Below, in pieces: positions 2,513 to 51,785 of a stretch of 51,785 nucleotides of DNA. Each line of letters opens with the position of its first letter. Within the stretch, counting starts at the first letter, position 1. The stretch lies in the NCBI GenBank assembly GCA_903917345.1, contig CAIXAE010000035.1, forward strand, positions 1 through 51,785, written 5' to 3'. Source of the DNA: an uncultured Methylococcaceae bacterium (GTDB lineage Bacteria > Pseudomonadota > Gammaproteobacteria > Methylococcales > Methylomonadaceae). The notes under the pieces were generated by a model, which ran no database searches, was not told the origin of the DNA, and saw nothing but the letters and a program-made list of their open reading frames with translations. A program made the position numbers and the translations under genes.

Positions 2513-4135
2513 ATGAAGAAAAAATCGTTGCACTATTTACAGATGCACACAAACTTAGAAAGTGTCATGAATGAACTTTCACCTGAGATTCTGAGCACTC
2601 GCTCATACCCCCCGAGCGAAGCAAAAATACCTTATGAACTATTTATAGAGACTGTTGAACAGGCTCCGATTGCCATCTCTATTACTGATAAAAAAGCCAA
2701 TATTCTTTACGCTAATGAAGCCTTTTATAAGGTCACTGGCTATCAGATTGCGGATGTACTTGGTAAAAAAGAATCCATACTCTCTGATAAATCAACGCCT
2801 CGTGAAGTCTATTACGACTTATGGCACACTATCAGTAACAAAAAAGTGTGGCAAGGAACGCTGTGTAATCGTCATAAATTAGGACATCGCTATCTCGCAG
2901 ACTTAACTATTGCACCAATGTTGGACGACGTGGGTATCATCACCCACTACATTGGGATGCATCGAGATATTACAAAAACCTATGAATCAGAAAAGAAAGT
3001 GAGTAATCATAAATTGCTGATCGAATCAGTGATTAACTCCTCACCGATGGCGATGGTGGTTATTGATGATCAAGATCAAGTCATTTTAGATAACCATATG
3101 TATAAAGCCATGGTCTCTGACTTAGACAAAGGCGAACCAGCGAAATATTTCTTAAAACTATTACGCCAAGAACTGGGGGCTTCATGGCAAGAAATTCAGA
3201 ATAATCAGCATGGCTTCAATAACCATGAATACAAGATAGAGGGTAAAGGAAATAGACCTGTGCGCTGGTTTTCTTGTGCAGGAAATTGGTTTACTGAAAC
3301 CTCTGTTAATGCAGATGCTTTTTTTGAAAATGTGTCTAAACAGTATCTCATCTTAACCATATCTGATATTACTCGGCAGCGTCAGCAACTTCAGGAGTTG
3401 CGCCTGCAATCTTTAAAAAACCTCATGACTGAAGACGAGCGAATTCGTGGTCTACGCGAAACACTATTAGGTGCAGTTCATCAAATACAGATGCCCATGA
3501 ACCAAATCAAAGCGTCTGAAAACATATTAAGGCACAAAGGTGAGAAACAGTATGAAGGTGTATTACAAAACTTAATTCAAATTCAAGAGTCGGGTGAAGT
3601 GGCTATTAATACCATGCAAAAGTGTATTCCCGAAATCACTCAAAGCCCATTTACGTCAGTCAATTTAAATCAAATTTTACATGACGTATTATTGTTAAGC
3701 GATCAACGACTTGCCTTGACAGGTATAGACGTTAAATGGCAACCACTCACTACGCTCCCCACTATGTTGGGCTCTGAAAATCGTTTACGCATCTTATTTA
3801 AACAACTCATAGACAATGCCATTGATGCTATCAGCACGTCTAGCAATAAAGAACAACGAATTAAAATTAGCACCGATGTAGACACAGACGTCATTTACGT
3901 GTTTATTGAAGATACCGGCCCAGGCATACCTTCCGATAAACGCTCTAAAGTATTTGAACCTTTCTACACCACTAGACCTATGGGTGGAAATCAGGCCGGC
4001 ATGGGACTGGTCATTGCGAAAGAAATTGTTAACCAACACCACGGATTTATCGATATAGATCCAGATTATTCAGTGGGGTGTCGCGTTAAAATCAGCTTTC
4101 CTCTACACAATTCAATATCAAGGAGGCTTGTGTAA
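2513..4135 (+). CDS. nifL: NifL, redox- and nitrogen-sensing anti-activator of NifA
   Basis: NifL binds and inhibits NifA when oxygen or fixed nitrogen is present. The 540-residue protein has an N-terminal PAS domain (about 40-155) in the position of the FAD-binding redox sensor, a second PAS-like domain (about 165-285), a helical region with His323 in AVHQIQMPMNQ at the histidine-kinase H-box position, and a C-terminal GHKL ATP-binding domain (N-box DNAIDA at 434-439, then GPGIP, FEPFYTTR and GMGLVIAKE). The nifA start overlaps its stop by one base (TAATG) behind a strong AGGAGG at 4121-4126, so the pair is translationally coupled. The ATG at 2513 has no clear ribosome site; internal ATGs at codons 11 and 20 are possible starts. 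Confidence 0.95.
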   Translation: MKKKSLHYLQMHTNLESVMNELSPEILSTRSYPPSEAKIPYELFIETVEQAPIAISITDKKANILYANEAFYKVTGYQIADVLGKKESILSDKSTPREVYYDLWHTISNKKVWQGTLCNRHKLGHRYLADLTIAPMLDDVGIITHYIGMHRDITKTYESEKKVSNHKLLIESVINSSPMAMVVIDDQDQVILDNHMYKAMVSDLDKGEPAKYFLKLLRQELGASWQEIQNNQHGFNNHEYKIEGKGNRPVRWFSCAGNWFTETSVNADAFFENVSKQYLILTISDITRQRQQLQELRLQSLKNLMTEDERIRGLRETLLGAVHQIQMPMNQIKASENILRHKGEKQYEGVLQNLIQIQESGEVAINTMQKCIPEITQSPFTSVNLNQILHDVLLLSDQRLALTGIDVKWQPLTTLPTMLGSENRLRILFKQLIDNAIDAISTSSNKEQRIKISTDVDTDVIYVFIEDTGPGIPSDKRSKVFEPFYTTRPMGGNQAGMGLVIAKEIVNQHHGFIDIDPDYSVGCRVKISFPLHNSISRRLV

Positions 4136-5679
4136 TGCCTGAACGCACACAACTCATAGAAGCCGAACTTGATACCTTGTACCTCATCAGTCAAGTATTG
4201 AATAGTACGCATGATTTGCATGCAAAATTACACGCAGTATTGGAGATATTGCATAAACGATCAGGCATGTGTTCTGGCATGATCACACTTAAAGAAATCG
4301 AAAATAATAGCCTTATAGCGAGTGTAGTTCACAGCGATGCAGGTGAAAAACTGGATCAATCCGTCAGATATAATCCAGGTGAAGGCTTGATCGGAGCTGT
4401 TTTAGATGCGGGCTCCACCATCGTTGTAGAAAAGATATCTGAAGAACCTCGCTTCCTAGGTCGATTGGGCTTATATGACCCCAATTTGCCCTTTATTGGT
4501 TCGCCAATATATGTAGAAGAAGGTGACACTATAGGAATATTAGCTGCGCAACCCAGTAACAATCGATTTCTGGGTGAGCGTGCTCGTTTTATGGAGATGA
4601 TTGCTAACTTAATTGCGCAAAGCGTAAAAATGCTACGTGTTATAGAGCGTAAAGAACTTAATTTAGTTAATGAACGCGACCAGTTGAAGCATGCTTTAAT
4701 CAAAAACTACAGTTTCGACAATATCATTGGTCACTCATCCCCGATGCTTAAAGTCTTCGATTTAATCAGACAAGTAGCAAAGTGGCAAACGACCGTATTA
4801 ATACGAGGTGAATCAGGCACAGGTAAAGAAGTGGTTGCTAATGCCATTCATTTTAATTCAGGTTGCGCGGGAGGCCCTTTTTTAAAACTAAACTGTGCCG
4901 CCCTCCCCGACACCTTATTGGAATCTGAACTCTTTGGGCATGAAAAAGGTGCTTTCAGCGGTGCGGTCGGTCTACGGAAAGGGCGTTTCGAATTAGCCGA
5001 CAATGGCACGTTATTTCTTGATGAAATCGGGGAAATATCTGCTTCTTTTCAAGCCAAACTTTTACGCGTCTTACAAGAAGGCGAATTTGAAAGAGTCGGC
5101 GGCAGTCAAACCATAAAAACTAATGTCCGTATTATTGCCGCAACTAATCGTAATTTAGAAGAAGAAGTCACCGAAGGTAAGTTTAGAGAAGATTTATATT
5201 ACCGACTTAATATTATGCCCATCAATATGCCACCGCTTCGGGATAGAACTGAGGATATTCCGGAATTATCTGAGTTTCTACTTGGCAGAATTTCTGAGCA
5301 ACAAGGGGGCAGACCTCTTGAAATTAAAGAAAGTGCCATTCGTATTTTAATGAAACATGACTGGCCGGGTAATGTGCGTGAACTATCTAATCGACTAGAG
5401 CGTGCTGCCATCATGAGTTCCAATGGCATTATTGATCGTGATGTTATGGTGAATACCGGTTTGGAAGATGTCGTCTCTCAAGTTGGCGCTAACTTTAAAC
5501 CCCAAAAAACTGCCACCATTGACTTTAATGATGACAATATGGATGACCGTGAACGCGTCATTGCGGCCTTAGAACAAAGTGGCTGGGTACAAGCAAAAGC
5601 AGCACGCTTACTCAATATGACACCACGGCAAATTGCTTATCGCATTTTGACTTTAGATATCACCATGAAACAAATTTAA
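4135..5679 (+). CDS. nifA: NifA, sigma-54-dependent activator of nif genes
   Basis: NifA is the enhancer-binding protein that opens RpoN promoters of nif operons. The 514-residue protein has a GAF domain (about 15-170), an AAA+ ATPase domain (about 195-430) with Walker A GESGTGKE at 225-232, the sigma-54 contact loop GAFSGA at 272-277 (a T-to-S variant of GAFTGA) and Walker B TLFLDEIGE, and a C-terminal Fis-type helix-turn-helix (AKAARLLNMTPRQIAYRI). The linker before the helix-turn-helix lacks the Cys pair of oxygen-sensitive alphaproteobacterial NifA, which fits control by NifL. Start coupled to nifL by a one-base overlap. Confidence 0.98.
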   Translation: MPERTQLIEAELDTLYLISQVLNSTHDLHAKLHAVLEILHKRSGMCSGMITLKEIENNSLIASVVHSDAGEKLDQSVRYNPGEGLIGAVLDAGSTIVVEKISEEPRFLGRLGLYDPNLPFIGSPIYVEEGDTIGILAAQPSNNRFLGERARFMEMIANLIAQSVKMLRVIERKELNLVNERDQLKHALIKNYSFDNIIGHSSPMLKVFDLIRQVAKWQTTVLIRGESGTGKEVVANAIHFNSGCAGGPFLKLNCAALPDTLLESELFGHEKGAFSGAVGLRKGRFELADNGTLFLDEIGEISASFQAKLLRVLQEGEFERVGGSQTIKTNVRIIAATNRNLEEEVTEGKFREDLYYRLNIMPINMPPLRDRTEDIPELSEFLLGRISEQQGGRPLEIKESAIRILMKHDWPGNVRELSNRLERAAIMSSNGIIDRDVMVNTGLEDVVSQVGANFKPQKTATIDFNDDNMDDRERVIAALEQSGWVQAKAARLLNMTPRQIAYRILTLDITMKQI

Positions 5680-5695
5680 CTGCTTAGGAGTACCT

Positions 5696-5956
5696 ATGAC
5701 TATCTTATATGTTCAACATGATTATGCTGTCTTTGGCTTTGGTGAAACACAAGAAGAAGCGATTGCAATGGCGGCTCAATGGTTAAAAGATGCAACAGGT
5801 AAACAAGGCTGCTCTATCGAGTTCGCTGAAAGTTTATTAGTAGGCAATGCAAAGCCAGGGCAAATGACCCTTTACGTGACAGATGAAACTATTCCTGCTC
5901 ATGCAGAAAACTGGGGCGGCGAAGAGTTATTAGATTGGTATTACGACGTCGCTTAA
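5696..5956 (+). CDS. unknown 86-residue protein between nifA and nifB
   Basis: I do not recognise this protein. It starts 17 bases after nifA behind a TTAGGAG ribosome site, so it is probably the third gene of the nifLA transcript and lies before the nifB promoter. It begins MTILYVQHDYAVFGFGETQE and is an acidic, soluble alpha/beta-like protein with one cysteine (about residue 38), aromatic residues near the end (ENWGGEELLDWYYDVA) and no membrane segment or metal-binding motif. Codon use is like that of its neighbours. Its place suggests a nif-related role, but that is inferred from position only. Confidence 0.8.
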   Translation: MTILYVQHDYAVFGFGETQEEAIAMAAQWLKDATGKQGCSIEFAESLLVGNAKPGQMTLYVTDETIPAHAENWGGEELLDWYYDVA

Positions 5957-5973
5957 AATATTACAAACATTCT

Positions 5974-5989
5974 TGTTCTGTTAATAACA
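5974..5989. promoter_or_regulatory. NifA upstream activator sequence 1 of nifB
   Basis: Perfect TGT-N10-ACA (TGTTCTGTTAATAACA), about 111 bases upstream of the nifB -24 element, immediately after the 86-residue gene. Confidence 0.75.
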
Positions 5990-6006
5990 AAACCCTAAAT
6001 GAAAAC

Positions 6007-6022
6007 TGTTATGTTTACGACA
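6007..6022. promoter_or_regulatory. NifA upstream activator sequence 2 of nifB
   Basis: Second perfect TGT-N10-ACA (TGTTATGTTTACGACA), 33 bases from the first (about three helical turns) and about 78 bases upstream of the -24 element. Confidence 0.75.
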
Positions 6023-6084
6023 ATCATACCCAACACACATAACAAGTCCATTTAAAATCAATAAGATATATTAAATTAATTACT

Positions 6085-6100
6085 TGGCATGACCTGTGCA
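6085..6100 (+). promoter_or_regulatory. sigma-54 (-24/-12) promoter of the nifB operon
   Basis: TGGCATGACCTGTGCA has GG and GC ten bases apart and a nearly complete RpoN consensus. The predicted start falls near 6110, with an AAGAGGA ribosome site before the nifB ATG at 6139. Confidence 0.88.
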
Positions 6101-6138
6101 TTTACTTAAAGTAAAACTAACTTTAAGAGGACGAAACC

Positions 6139-7644
6139 ATGCAATTGCCAGTATTAAATGATACCCCTAGCCCAGCAGAGCATGGAGCCAAAGGTGGTTG
6201 TTCCGCAAGTTCTTGCGGTACCACAGAAAATCAAATGGACACTTTGCCGGATTCAATTCGGGAAAAAGTTCAAAATCACCCCTGTTATTCTGAAGATGCG
6301 CATCATTACTTTGCGCGTATGCATGTTGCCGTTGCTCCCGCGTGTAATATCCAATGCCATTACTGTAATCGTAAATACGATTGTGCTAACGAATCTCGCC
6401 CCGGTGTTGTATCAGAATTATTAACACCTGATCAAGCTGTTAAAAAAACCATGGCGGTCGCCGCTACCATTCCACAAATGACCGTATTAGGCATTGCTGG
6501 CCCGGGTGATCCATTAGCAAATCCAGAACGTACTTTTGAAACTTTCCGTCGTTTAAGTGAGGAAGCACCCGATATTAAATTATGTGTCTCAACTAACGGT
6601 TTGGCTTTACCTGACGCCGTTGAAGAACTTTCAAAACATAACATCGATCACGTCACTATCACCATCAACACCGTTGACCCAGAAATTGGGGCAAAGATTT
6701 ATCCGTGGATATTCTGGAAGAACAAACGCATCAAAGGTGTTAAAGGCGCAAAAATTCTGATTGAACAACAACAAAAAGGCCTAGAAATGCTGATTGCAAA
6801 AGGCATTTTAGTTAAGGTCAATTCGGTCATGATACCTGGTGTTAACGATGAACATTTAGCAGAAGTGAGTCGCGTCGTTAAATCAAAAGGCGCTTTCTTA
6901 CACAACGTAATGCCTTTAATTGCTGAGGCAGAACACGGCACTTTCTATGGCGTCATGGGGCAACGTGGCCCTACCCCTGATGAATTACAAGATCTACAAG
7001 ATAGTTGCTCTGGTGACATGAACATGATGCGCCATTGCCGTCAATGTCGTGCGGATGCTGTCGGCTTATTGGGTGAAGATCGTGGTGATGAATTCACTCT
7101 AGATAAAATCGAAGAAATGGATATCGATTATCAAGCTGCGATGGAAAAACGTAAAGTAATCCATCAAGCCATCCAAGAAGAAATGGATAGTAAACGCCTC
7201 GAAAAAGCGGCTAAAGCTGAACAACATAAACAAGAACCCAAACTCACTACCCGGCCAGTATTAATGGCGGTTGCAACCAGTGGCCAAGGCGTTATCAATG
7301 TCCATTTTGGTCATGCTAAAGAGTTCTTGATTTATGAAGCCTCACCTGAAGGTGTTCGCTTCATCAGTCATCGTAAAGCCGACCAATATTGTGGTGGCGA
7401 TAGTACCTGTGGTGATGGCGAAAGCGTATTACAACTCACTATTCGTGCCCTAGCCGGCTGTGAAGTCGTATTGTGTTCAAAAGTGGGATATGAACCTTGG
7501 GAAATGCTTGAGGCTGCAGGCATAGCCCCTAATGGTGAGCACGCAATGGAACCTATCGGAGAAGCGGTTATGGCTGTCTACAAAGAAATGGCGGCAGCTG
7601 GAAAATTGGACGCAATCCCTGAAGCCCTCCGCGCAAATGCATAA
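6139..7644 (+). CDS. nifB: NifB, radical SAM FeMo-cofactor precursor synthase
   Basis: NifB fuses two 4Fe-4S clusters and inserts carbide to make NifB-co, the precursor of FeMo-cofactor. The 501-residue protein has the radical SAM motif CNIQCHYCNRKYDC (Cys69, Cys73, Cys76), a TIM-barrel core with the conserved GPGDPLANP stretch, further cysteines (MMRHCRQCRADAVGLLGED) for the accessory clusters, and a C-terminal NifX/NafY-like domain (about 370-490, with INVHFGHAKEF and CEVVLCSKVGYEPWE). That two-domain form is the proteobacterial type. It is the first gene of an operon running to nifQ, behind a sigma-54/NifA-type promoter. Confidence 0.98.
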   Translation: MQLPVLNDTPSPAEHGAKGGCSASSCGTTENQMDTLPDSIREKVQNHPCYSEDAHHYFARMHVAVAPACNIQCHYCNRKYDCANESRPGVVSELLTPDQAVKKTMAVAATIPQMTVLGIAGPGDPLANPERTFETFRRLSEEAPDIKLCVSTNGLALPDAVEELSKHNIDHVTITINTVDPEIGAKIYPWIFWKNKRIKGVKGAKILIEQQQKGLEMLIAKGILVKVNSVMIPGVNDEHLAEVSRVVKSKGAFLHNVMPLIAEAEHGTFYGVMGQRGPTPDELQDLQDSCSGDMNMMRHCRQCRADAVGLLGEDRGDEFTLDKIEEMDIDYQAAMEKRKVIHQAIQEEMDSKRLEKAAKAEQHKQEPKLTTRPVLMAVATSGQGVINVHFGHAKEFLIYEASPEGVRFISHRKADQYCGGDSTCGDGESVLQLTIRALAGCEVVLCSKVGYEPWEMLEAAGIAPNGEHAMEPIGEAVMAVYKEMAAAGKLDAIPEALRANA

Positions 7645-50433: not shown

Positions 50434-50630
50434 GCTATTTCCATTAATAAAAATATTGTCCAAAGAATACAATTTTCTTATGCTTAATACAATTAGCAAA
50501 TAGTGTGCACAGTCAGGTAAGAATCTAAAAAGACAGCATATATCCGTCACCATTAACAATTGTCTGTAATTTTAAGATGTACCTCAAATAATCAAGACAC
50601 ATCATTATCATTTGGAGAGATTTCTAAATC

Positions 50631-51150
50631 TTTGGCATCTAAGTTATAAAACGTGTCTCCTTGCTGAAATATGAGTGCCCGTGTTTAAACCTGAGTTTTT
50701 TATTAGAGCCATTATTCGGCCTTTAAAACTCTTAGTCGCGTGTTAGCACCTGAGATCTGGCAATTAAAATTAAGTTTGAAGGCGGAGACTTGTGTTTCAG
50801 TCTTGGGTCGCAAGTTTTACAGCTAGCCCAATGATTTTATGGCTAAACCCCAGATTTATCAGCAGAACTTTTAACTTCATAATTTAATTTTGTATTTGAA
50901 TACTGGAGCACAAGTTTTGGTTTTGGTACGGAAGTTTTAGCATTAGCCTAAAAGTTTGGCGATTGGCATCTAGGTTTTAACGTTGGCACCCGAGTTTAAT
51001 ATCTGATATTTAGGTATAAGTACACGGTAAAAGAAAAAAACATTGAACCTCAAATCTAAATGTTGGACCTAAAGCCTAAAGGTTGGCCCTCAAGTTTGAA
51101 TACTGGGATCCATAGATAAATGTTTTATTACAAGTATAAAGCTTAAAGCT
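50631..51150. repeat. degenerate tandem array with 20-base period
   Basis: About 25 successive 20-base units fit the rough consensus NNTTGGCACCTAAGTTTTAA, kept in a single register from about 50741 to 51140, with a shift of ten bases near 50650 and one base near 50680. Clear units include 50961 GATTGGCATCTAGGTTTTAA, 50981 CGTTGGCACCCGAGTTTAAT, 51061 TGTTGGACCTAAAGCCTAAA and 51081 GGTTGGCCCTCAAGTTTGAA. Position 14 is G or A in every unit from 50741 to 51140. The consensus contains stop codons, so it is not coding. Units differ strongly from one another, so it is an old or functionally constrained array. No gene lies in 50560-51432. Confidence 0.75.
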
Positions 51151-51384
51151 ATTTTTACGGCTAGTAGTCTGTTTAAAACTGACACTTCTAGTATAGAACC
51201 AGACTTAATTATAGCAATGCTTCAAGTCATTACGTGAAGATGATGTTTTGATAGTTTGGAAAGCTCGACCGTCTTGACAGATATCTGCGATATTTAACCG
51301 ATGTGGTGAATATTTGGCGATCAAACATTAGATCGTACAGTAGAATCGAATGAGCACAGGAAATTAAAATCCGTCTTGCAGCCA

Positions 51385-51432: not shown

Positions 51433-51522
51433 TGGCGGAGAAGCAGGGATTCGAACCCTGGGAGGGGATCAACCCTCAACGGTTTTCAAGACCGCCGCTT
51501 TCGGCCGCTCAGCCACCTCTCC
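51433..51522 (-). tRNA. tRNA-Ser (UGA)
   Basis: A 90-base tRNA with encoded CCA, acceptor stem starting GGAGAGG, a long variable arm (TTGAGGGTTGATCCCCTCCC region) and anticodon loop CTTGAAA, so anticodon TGA. Discriminator base G73 and the long extra arm are typical of serine tRNAs. Confidence 0.97.
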
Positions 51523-51610
51523 ACAAGCCGACTATTGTAACTTAAATAATGTAAAAATCAATTAATTTATTCGATTTTACTCATTATAAAAGTCAGTTAA
51601 AAAAGCATGC

Positions 51611-51785
51611 TTATGCACAAAAGTCATTAATTTTATCTGCAATGCCTTTTACATCTAAGCCACAGATAGCTAATAACTCTTCACGTGTCCCTTGTTCTAC
51701 AAAACTATCAGGTAAGCCTATGTTAAGCACAGGCATCAATATACGCTGAGCTTGAAGATAGTTATTCACGGCACTCCCTGCCCCT
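51611..51785 (-). CDS. dxs: 1-deoxy-D-xylulose-5-phosphate synthase, C-terminal end (5' part outside window)
   Basis: The last 57 codons of a minus-strand gene that runs off the window. The protein end (GAGSAVNNYLQAQ, PVLNIGLPDSFVEQGTREEL, AICGLDVKGIADKI) matches the C-terminal transketolase-like domain of Dxs, the first enzyme of the MEP isoprenoid pathway. Only this part is visible, so catalytic residues cannot be checked. Confidence 0.9.
   Translation of the reverse strand, partial: GAGSAVNNYLQAQRILMPVLNIGLPDSFVEQGTREELLAICGLDVKGIADKINDFCA

Follow-up and report, generated by a model that had tools for sequence, protein, structure and literature searches.

A degenerate 20-bp tandem array as a candidate member of a proposed class of phased protein-binding DNA platforms associated with a fibronectin III-like gene family

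The array of degenerate 20-bp units close to the right end of the window (the whole stretch of 51,785 nucleotides analysed here) has homologues elsewhere in its genome, one of which adjoins a gene of a dispersed family whose copies are mostly accompanied by arrays of the same period class. We put at about even the chance that the window array belongs to a class of non-coding platforms for protein binding to double-stranded DNA. Among the options that an earlier, sequence-only reading had offered for the array, phased protein binding is the one that survives and the best-supported reading, judged from the period, the dyad symmetry, the maintained register and the lack of hairpin covariation.

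Between 50631 and 51150, the identity at lag 20 is 0.458, compared to a mean of 0.269 (sd 0.019, maximum 0.33) in 500 dinucleotide shuffles, which corresponds to a z of about 10. In the same number of shuffles, lags 5 to 104 never rose above 0.369. Lags 40, 60, 80 and 100 of the array are also elevated, and when lags 10-40 were scored in 400-base windows, the top value of the whole window was found for lag 20 at 50702 (0.468). The 20-base tandem periodicity suspected from the letters alone is thus borne out, with an autocorrelation far above that of shuffled sequence. The description as hidden is apt, because Tandem Repeats Finder at its lowest threshold detects only 51056-51094. The array consists of about 25 degenerate 20-bp units, and the profile unit nnYTRRnACnYAAGTTTnAn is close to the consensus drawn up earlier. 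The unit reads as a degenerate palindrome (P 0.03 for the dyad when columns are permuted). A single register over the last 400 bases or so had been claimed, and 22 units are indeed in phase from 50701 to 51140; 5' of 50701 the register is disturbed. The region is gene-free as stated, in that open reading frames of 80 aa or more are absent from the array. It was also rightly set apart from CRISPR, since the whole unit is degenerate and there is no constant split into repeat and spacer. The array and its surroundings are as follows.

Start near 50434, minus strand: lipoprotein-like open reading frame (by eye), left of the array.
50624..51150, forward strand: window array, motif family A (locus C35), cyclic 20-state profile, score 187.8.
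50670..50700, forward strand: register disturbance, one 31-base unit in the profile, a single 1-base gap in the homologue alignment.
50701..51140, forward strand: 22 consecutive single-register units, listed without a register break.
51137..51156, forward strand: array tail, a weak short inverted repeat and then T (AAAGCTTAAAGCT ATTTTT).
51433-51522, minus strand: tRNA-Ser, right of the array.

A PhoX gene also lies to the left of the array. At both thresholds, the Rfam scan of the window returned two tRNAs alone, and the array had no match at E<=1. A tblastn search found no relic of the partner gene (described below) in the window, and promoter and terminator scans stayed near chance level. 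Sigma-54 promoters have a GC in the -12 element; the unit lacks it, and the sigma-54-like appearance of TTGGCAC...TTT was dismissed. For the array tail, the terminator scan gave no terminator-like call. The tail hairpin was dropped as a component of the array element, because the stronger hairpin of related loci goes with the convergent neighbour gene; at locus L046 this hairpin and the array are some 660 bases apart. The final 175 bases of the window (51610-51785) recur where contig C33 of the same genome ends and close to several contig ends of relatives, and are probably a repeat that broke the assembly. Far to the left (4135-7644), a sigma-54 activator with a GAF domain adjoins a radical SAM protein with a FeMo-Co domain, a gene pair that we take to suggest a nif cluster and a diazotroph.

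A DNA search identified a second array in the 2.48-Mb Methylobacter-like genome of the window (G000), and a near copy of that array in a sister species. The scan of the own and related genomes proposed earlier did turn up homologous arrays, at three further loci of G000 (C36, C8 and C13a) and one locus of the sister species (G010 C303). With up to two mismatches, a two-unit pattern forms clusters in G000 at C8, C13, C24, C35 (the window) and C36, and also in G007, G010 and G029; most other genomes contain single matches only, the same as for the reversed control pattern. Model R1 finds the motif in 3 of 237 genomes, a tally that understates the spread because R1 is blind to other motifs.

C35, C36, C13a, C8 and C303 align unit by unit, and C24 has the motif in common with the window array, with a weak alignment. 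Among the ten pairs of these five loci (C24 and G010 C193 are in alignment A5 but omitted from the counts), there are 94-242 substitutions per pair, and out-of-register gaps are almost absent. Five pairs combine 94 to 190 substitutions with no gap at all, namely C13a-C303 (94), C13a-C8 (167), C303-C8 (169), C36-C303 (185 in 578 aligned positions) and C36-C8 (190). C36 and C13a align with a single gap of 3. The window array differs from the other four loci by 211-242 substitutions, with gaps of 1 and 20 only. Register is maintained across roughly 18-49% divergence between loci. BLAST alignments of the six pairs among C36, C8, C13a and C303 are gapless over 511-563 bases. Outside the arrays, BLAST detected similarity for C35 and C36 only, over about 100 bases upstream.

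One pair, C13a and C303, has enough changes for a test by columns, with conservation taken from arrays outside the pair, which are themselves homologues of it; conserved columns evolved more slowly (0.142 versus 0.222, P 0.022). They did not between C36 and G010 C193 (17 substitutions), which represent one copy in two species and differ by an in-register 40-bp indel as well as by substitutions. In this comparison, the array has changed at 17 of 520 sites and the gene at 10 of 615. The PhoX-lipoprotein locus of G010 is without an array and runs on into other genes. Genes for DUF188 (YaiI) proteins neighbour the motif-A array C303 in G010 and the C10b-family array C13b in G000 (L036:6987-7313, L041:1961-2543), and it seems that the intergenic site beside DUF188 retains an array while the motif switches.

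The C36 array abuts a gene of 204 aa, which as a single sequence has no Pfam match. The protein of about 204 aa consists of an N-terminal part of about 110 residues and a fibronectin III-like C-terminal part. In a search of the PDB with a 20-member profile (A2), the C-terminal part matched fibronectin III chains (titin best, 2.4e-10), and Pfam fn3 is hit weakly, at E<=0.1, by 5 of the 20 (best 3e-4). For the N-terminal part, neither Pfam nor the PDB gave a convincing sequence match (best PDB E 0.017), and no DNA-binding fold was recognised in it from these searches. No match of the protein to nuclease, recombinase, transposase or ribbon-helix-helix families was found.

Within the family, 27 of 237 genomes carry the gene; 26 of the carriers belong to the window's own genus, and 14 carriers have at least 13 copies. 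In 298 other genomes of the phylum there was one weak match. A scan of genome contigs gave at least 80 gene loci, in Methylococcales, Bacteroidota and one Verrucomicrobia MAG. Among the matches listed, the Methylococcales carriers include Methylobacter psychrophilus Z-0021, Crenothrix polyspora MAGs and uncultured Methylococcaceae, and the Bacteroidota carriers Lacibacter cauensis, Niastella sp. OAS944, Chitinophagaceae, Flavobacteriales, Bacteroidales and Prolixibacteraceae. Copies within genomes are many and dispersed; ten Bacteroidota and Verrucomicrobia genomes have 1 to 24, the highest number being that of Niastella. Alignment A3 of the family omits L169, which has an in-frame stop. Profile A2 found no relative in viral contigs, nor did the single member P0001 in phages or plasmids, and a phage or plasmid element was rejected on these grounds.

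At 60 of 81 gene copies, many of them related and hence not independent trials, a periodic array lies within 1.2 kb and scores over the maximum of 41 control tiles. The 81 loci are 69 of the 80 scanned loci, 11 of G000 and one of G018; short or contig-end matches (L186, L188-L191, L194, L195, L202, L204-L206) were omitted. Upstream flanks are above the threshold in 50 of 80 cases and downstream flanks in 11 of 77, and out of 14 period classes, 20, 20.5 or 21 scored best in 49 of the 50 upstream and 10 of the 11 downstream calls. The other 21 gene copies have no array above the threshold; two of these loci, C40 and L154, have strong 62-bp repeats. Arrays are found at 11 of the 12 Bacteroidota and Verrucomicrobia loci of the set. 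In Niastella, an upstream array of the 20-21 class accompanies 17 of the 24 gene copies, and a downstream array none. The fine period of 59 arrays has a median of 20.9 and an interquartile range of 20.1-21.0, and that of the window array is 20.1. B-DNA has 10-10.5 bp per turn and A-form RNA 11. The period corresponds to two turns of B-DNA and not of A-form RNA.

The sequences of gene-linked arrays are mostly unrelated to one another. Sharing of 7-mers rises only between arrays of proteins that are more than 60% identical, and a permutation test relating these 7-mers to the identity of the proteins gave no significant result (P 0.19). Several gene-linked arrays are near-perfect, with lag identities of 0.9 and above. 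The Lacibacter cauensis arrays (L192, L275, L276) belong to a 22-bp (44-bp) class and are the sole representatives of the 22 class among the scored gene-linked arrays. At L046:3293-3912 and L043:3633-3983, two unit types alternate in a 40-bp higher-order unit, like in eukaryotic satellites, and other arrays have 42-, 60-, 62- or 63-bp units. None of the 19 period-20 arrays and 10 of the 34 period-21 arrays have a stop-free frame, and the window array has no open reading frame of 80 aa; a protein-coding repeat was rejected for these reasons. The motif GYGTATACTC between arrays and genes was also discarded as a general feature, being present in only 5 of 69 upstream regions.

Among neighbouring open reading frames (56 of 85 selected, 130-700 aa), we found no common partner family. 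The commonest was MFS_1 (4 of 56), and the best 25 of 91 families include no actin-like one. An association with defence was rejected as well, as the 56 frames contain ten PADLOC families with one member each together with mixed housekeeping families. PIN-domain-like toxin genes lie around array C13a (L036:1933-5134; PF01850 for 4733-5134, the rest by eye). Array C36 is flanked on one side by a protein kinase and a protein that is TIR-like by eye (L038:1-6881), and beyond its partner gene there is an N6-methylase-like gene in the same stretch; the surroundings of C36 are possibly a defence island.

Dyad symmetry is significant in 40 of 59 gene-linked arrays at P<0.05, and in 31 at P<0.01, when each array is compared to permutations of its own columns. 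A further set gave it for 8 of 13 gene-free arrays and, among the gene-linked arrays of Niastella, for 13 of 17; the motif-A arrays C35, C8, C13a and C303 have it too. Of the 19 arrays without significant symmetry, 12 have more than 13 bits per unit and are near-uniform repeats. The 19 include the copy of C36 in G010 (L127D, P 0.26).

Arrays also occur away from the gene. Control stretches were hand-picked rather than random, spread out and away from known gene copies. In G000, the threshold is passed by 9 of 240 tiles from such stretches, including 4 of class 21, and one above-threshold tile (L217) may be coding; in Niastella, the number is likewise 9 of 240, with 8 in class. The gene was not found in the control stretches of either genome, partly by the choice of place. 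Gene-free arrays thus have a density of about 1 per 75 kb in the sampled stretches of G000 and about 1 per 40 kb in those of Niastella. The neighbours of 16 gene-free arrays have no protein family in common according to BLASTP.

Many gene-free arrays match a gene-linked array of their own genome. Three of the five G000 gene-free arrays found by periodicity alone each match one gene-linked array, C13b and o214 matching C10b (5e-8 and 2e-54) and o208 matching C45b (7e-10); o212 and o217 have no match among the sampled gene-linked arrays. C8, C13a and C35 match the gene-linked C36 (3e-59, 2e-78 and 2e-25), which is no independent support because they were found by similarity to the window array. 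Of the eight gene-free arrays of Niastella, six match a gene-linked flank, with scores of 46-355 bits where the 96 control pieces reach 25-38 bits at most; for three of these six, a second and weaker match also exceeds control. The remaining two have no clear partner (oL335, 34.9 versus 28.5 bits, marginal; oL336, 31.7 versus 31.7, control level). In an out-of-sample test, four Niastella gene-free arrays unmatched among 11 gene-linked arrays were rechecked against 9 new copies. Two of them (oL323 and oL325) gained partners clearly over the 96 control pieces, and a predicted common partner of oL323 and oL335 was not borne out. Between G000 and Niastella, no arrays matched over 28.5 bits.

Homology over 511-563 bases without gaps implies that whole arrays were copied, and this unit-by-unit homology would also be expected of a selfish element. 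Gene and array would then be an autonomous dispersed repeat, the gene-free arrays would be non-autonomous copies made by an unspecified kind of recombination, and the protein would aid copying and not organisation. The explanation is helped by the number and dispersal of the gene copies and by the array-free PhoX-lipoprotein locus of G010. We nevertheless consider it unlikely. Register has been preserved after heavy divergence, and so have conserved columns in the one informative pair, which indicates that arrays were constrained after copying. Moreover, the protein matches no nuclease or recombinase family.

A period of two turns whatever the sequence could also be explained by an element of the nucleoid that is recognised by shape, either through HU- or H-NS-like wrapping or through intrinsic bending. 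Bending had been suggested for the window array, and four of the five motif-A arrays tested are predicted, from wedge parameters, to be curved beyond shuffles (z -3.1 to -5.8). Curvature is not general, however, since no clear excess over shuffles is predicted for C8 (z 0.2), C10b (z 1.2) or L155U (z -1.6). The arrays of one genome also form sequence families, for which a pure shape sensor would have no need. Recognition by shape is therefore quite unlikely in our estimate.

The idea of a decayed satellite, here a satellite or VNTR without present function and with a period set by slippage mechanics, appears highly improbable. Near-perfect gene-linked arrays and higher-order units of 40, 42, 60 or 63 bp would suit it, and so would the faster change of array than gene between C36 and G010 C193. 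It does not fit the near-zero number of out-of-register indels or the slower conserved columns of C13a versus C303, nor would it predict the dyad symmetry of the units. Five of the ten locus pairs have 94-190 substitutions and not a single internal gap, and this ratio of indels to substitutions largely refutes the satellite reading.

Dyad symmetry could belong to RNA hairpins or to sites in DNA. In 216 units of nine arrays, the paired fraction equals that of shuffled units. Across 68 arrays (14,901 cells), Watson-Crick pairing is 0.4542 versus 0.4597 in shuffles (z -2.1), with 4 single arrays above z 2 and 4 below -2. As RNA, the consensus folds weakly (-11.8 kcal/mol; covariation term +0.94). 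Compared to shuffles, the fold of the window array is ordinary (z -1.1), and that of C36 is better (z -2.99, 20 shuffles). A transcribed repeat RNA, with a hairpin or protein-binding loop in each unit, is compatible with the symmetry and with the fold of C36, but the structured RNA once envisaged has the slightest chance of being right, in view of unit pairing as in shuffles, the weak consensus fold, the lack of covariation and the empty Rfam search. Since there is neither hairpin covariation nor a conserved RNA fold, the symmetry is that of double-stranded DNA sites, two helical turns apart.

For the preferred reading of the arrays as platforms for phased protein binding, the following arrangement can be envisaged. 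Each platform would present about 10-30 dyad-symmetric sites, spaced by two helical turns (20-21 bp), and each site would be occupied by a dimer, or a dimer of dimers. From the two-turn spacing it would follow that bound dimers line up along a single face of the helix, where they could bind cooperatively to form a filament or a wrap. Several array families exist per genome, and every family has a palindrome of its own. Many families have one array next to a paralogue of the gene; other arrays with that motif, the window array among them, lie elsewhere without it. Because array families map to paralogues, the linked paralogue is a natural candidate for the binder of its family. The purpose may be local or global organisation of DNA, or silencing.

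A wider proposal is possible but tentative. Methylococcales, Bacteroidota and Verrucomicrobia may have a self-diversifying chromosomal system, in which up to about 25 helical/FnIII-like paralogues per genome would each read their own palindrome. By extrapolation, there would be tens to hundreds of phased arrays, one beside the gene and the rest in trans, acting as sequence-addressed anchors to organise, bridge or silence the chromosome. If each paralogue does read its own array family, addressable DNA-protein platforms would exist on the chromosomes of three phyla, as a natural set of matched protein-palindrome pairs. They might form a layer of chromosome organisation in which a protein family and its DNA address diversify together. 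With gene-free arrays at about 1 per 40-75 kb in the sampled stretches of two genomes, this would also account for one kind of intergenic 'junk' DNA overlooked by ordinary repeat finders. Among the matches listed from the open-access full-text literature (subscription papers and bioRxiv being outside its scope), such arrays and their link to the gene are undescribed.

Several known systems resemble the arrays in part. CRISPR loci have near-identical repeats separated by unrelated spacers. The present arrays are similar in being built of short units and adjoining a gene, but they have no constant repeat with unique spacers. Bacterial VNTRs or minisatellites consist of tandem units and change their copy number in whole units, as the 40-bp indel does here. 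In contrast to VNTRs, the arrays keep one period class across unrelated sequences and phyla, are tied to one gene family, and hold register through about 18-49% divergence between loci. In the iterons of plasmid replication, sites of about 20 bp follow one another in tandem at a spacing of helical turns, and the arrays are like them in both respects. They differ in the palindromic units, in the presence of many families per chromosome, and in having no common replication partner among the best 25 of 91 neighbour families.

REPs are hairpin elements linked to a RAYT transposase. REP, BIME and REPIN sequences are described as palindromic repeats that are scattered over intergenic regions and connected with a gene of the genome (PMC3116915). 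The arrays are likewise dispersed, palindromic, intergenic and tied to a gene. Membership in this group was rejected, because the units show no hairpin covariation and the linked gene has no transposase match.

The parC sites of ParMRC systems contain tandem repeats of 10, 11, 17 or 20 bp bound by ParR, usually upstream of the gene (PMC9426499). ParR is there a dimer or dimer of dimers and wraps DNA, and repeats vary between families, so that each ParR binds cognate repeats only (PMC9426499). The present arrays also have tandem units of 20 or 21 bp and lie mostly upstream of a gene, at some loci downstream. They differ in being chromosomal, in their number per genome and in having more units, and the linked protein is fibronectin III-like, without a recognised ribbon-helix-helix. 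We rejected membership in the ParMRC family, as no common partner gene was seen: no actin-like family, as expected of parM, appears among the best 25 of 91 families of the 56 neighbouring open reading frames scanned (130-700 aa), and the linked protein matches no ribbon-helix-helix family, as expected of parR. ParR on parC is the nearest working analogue of the arrays.
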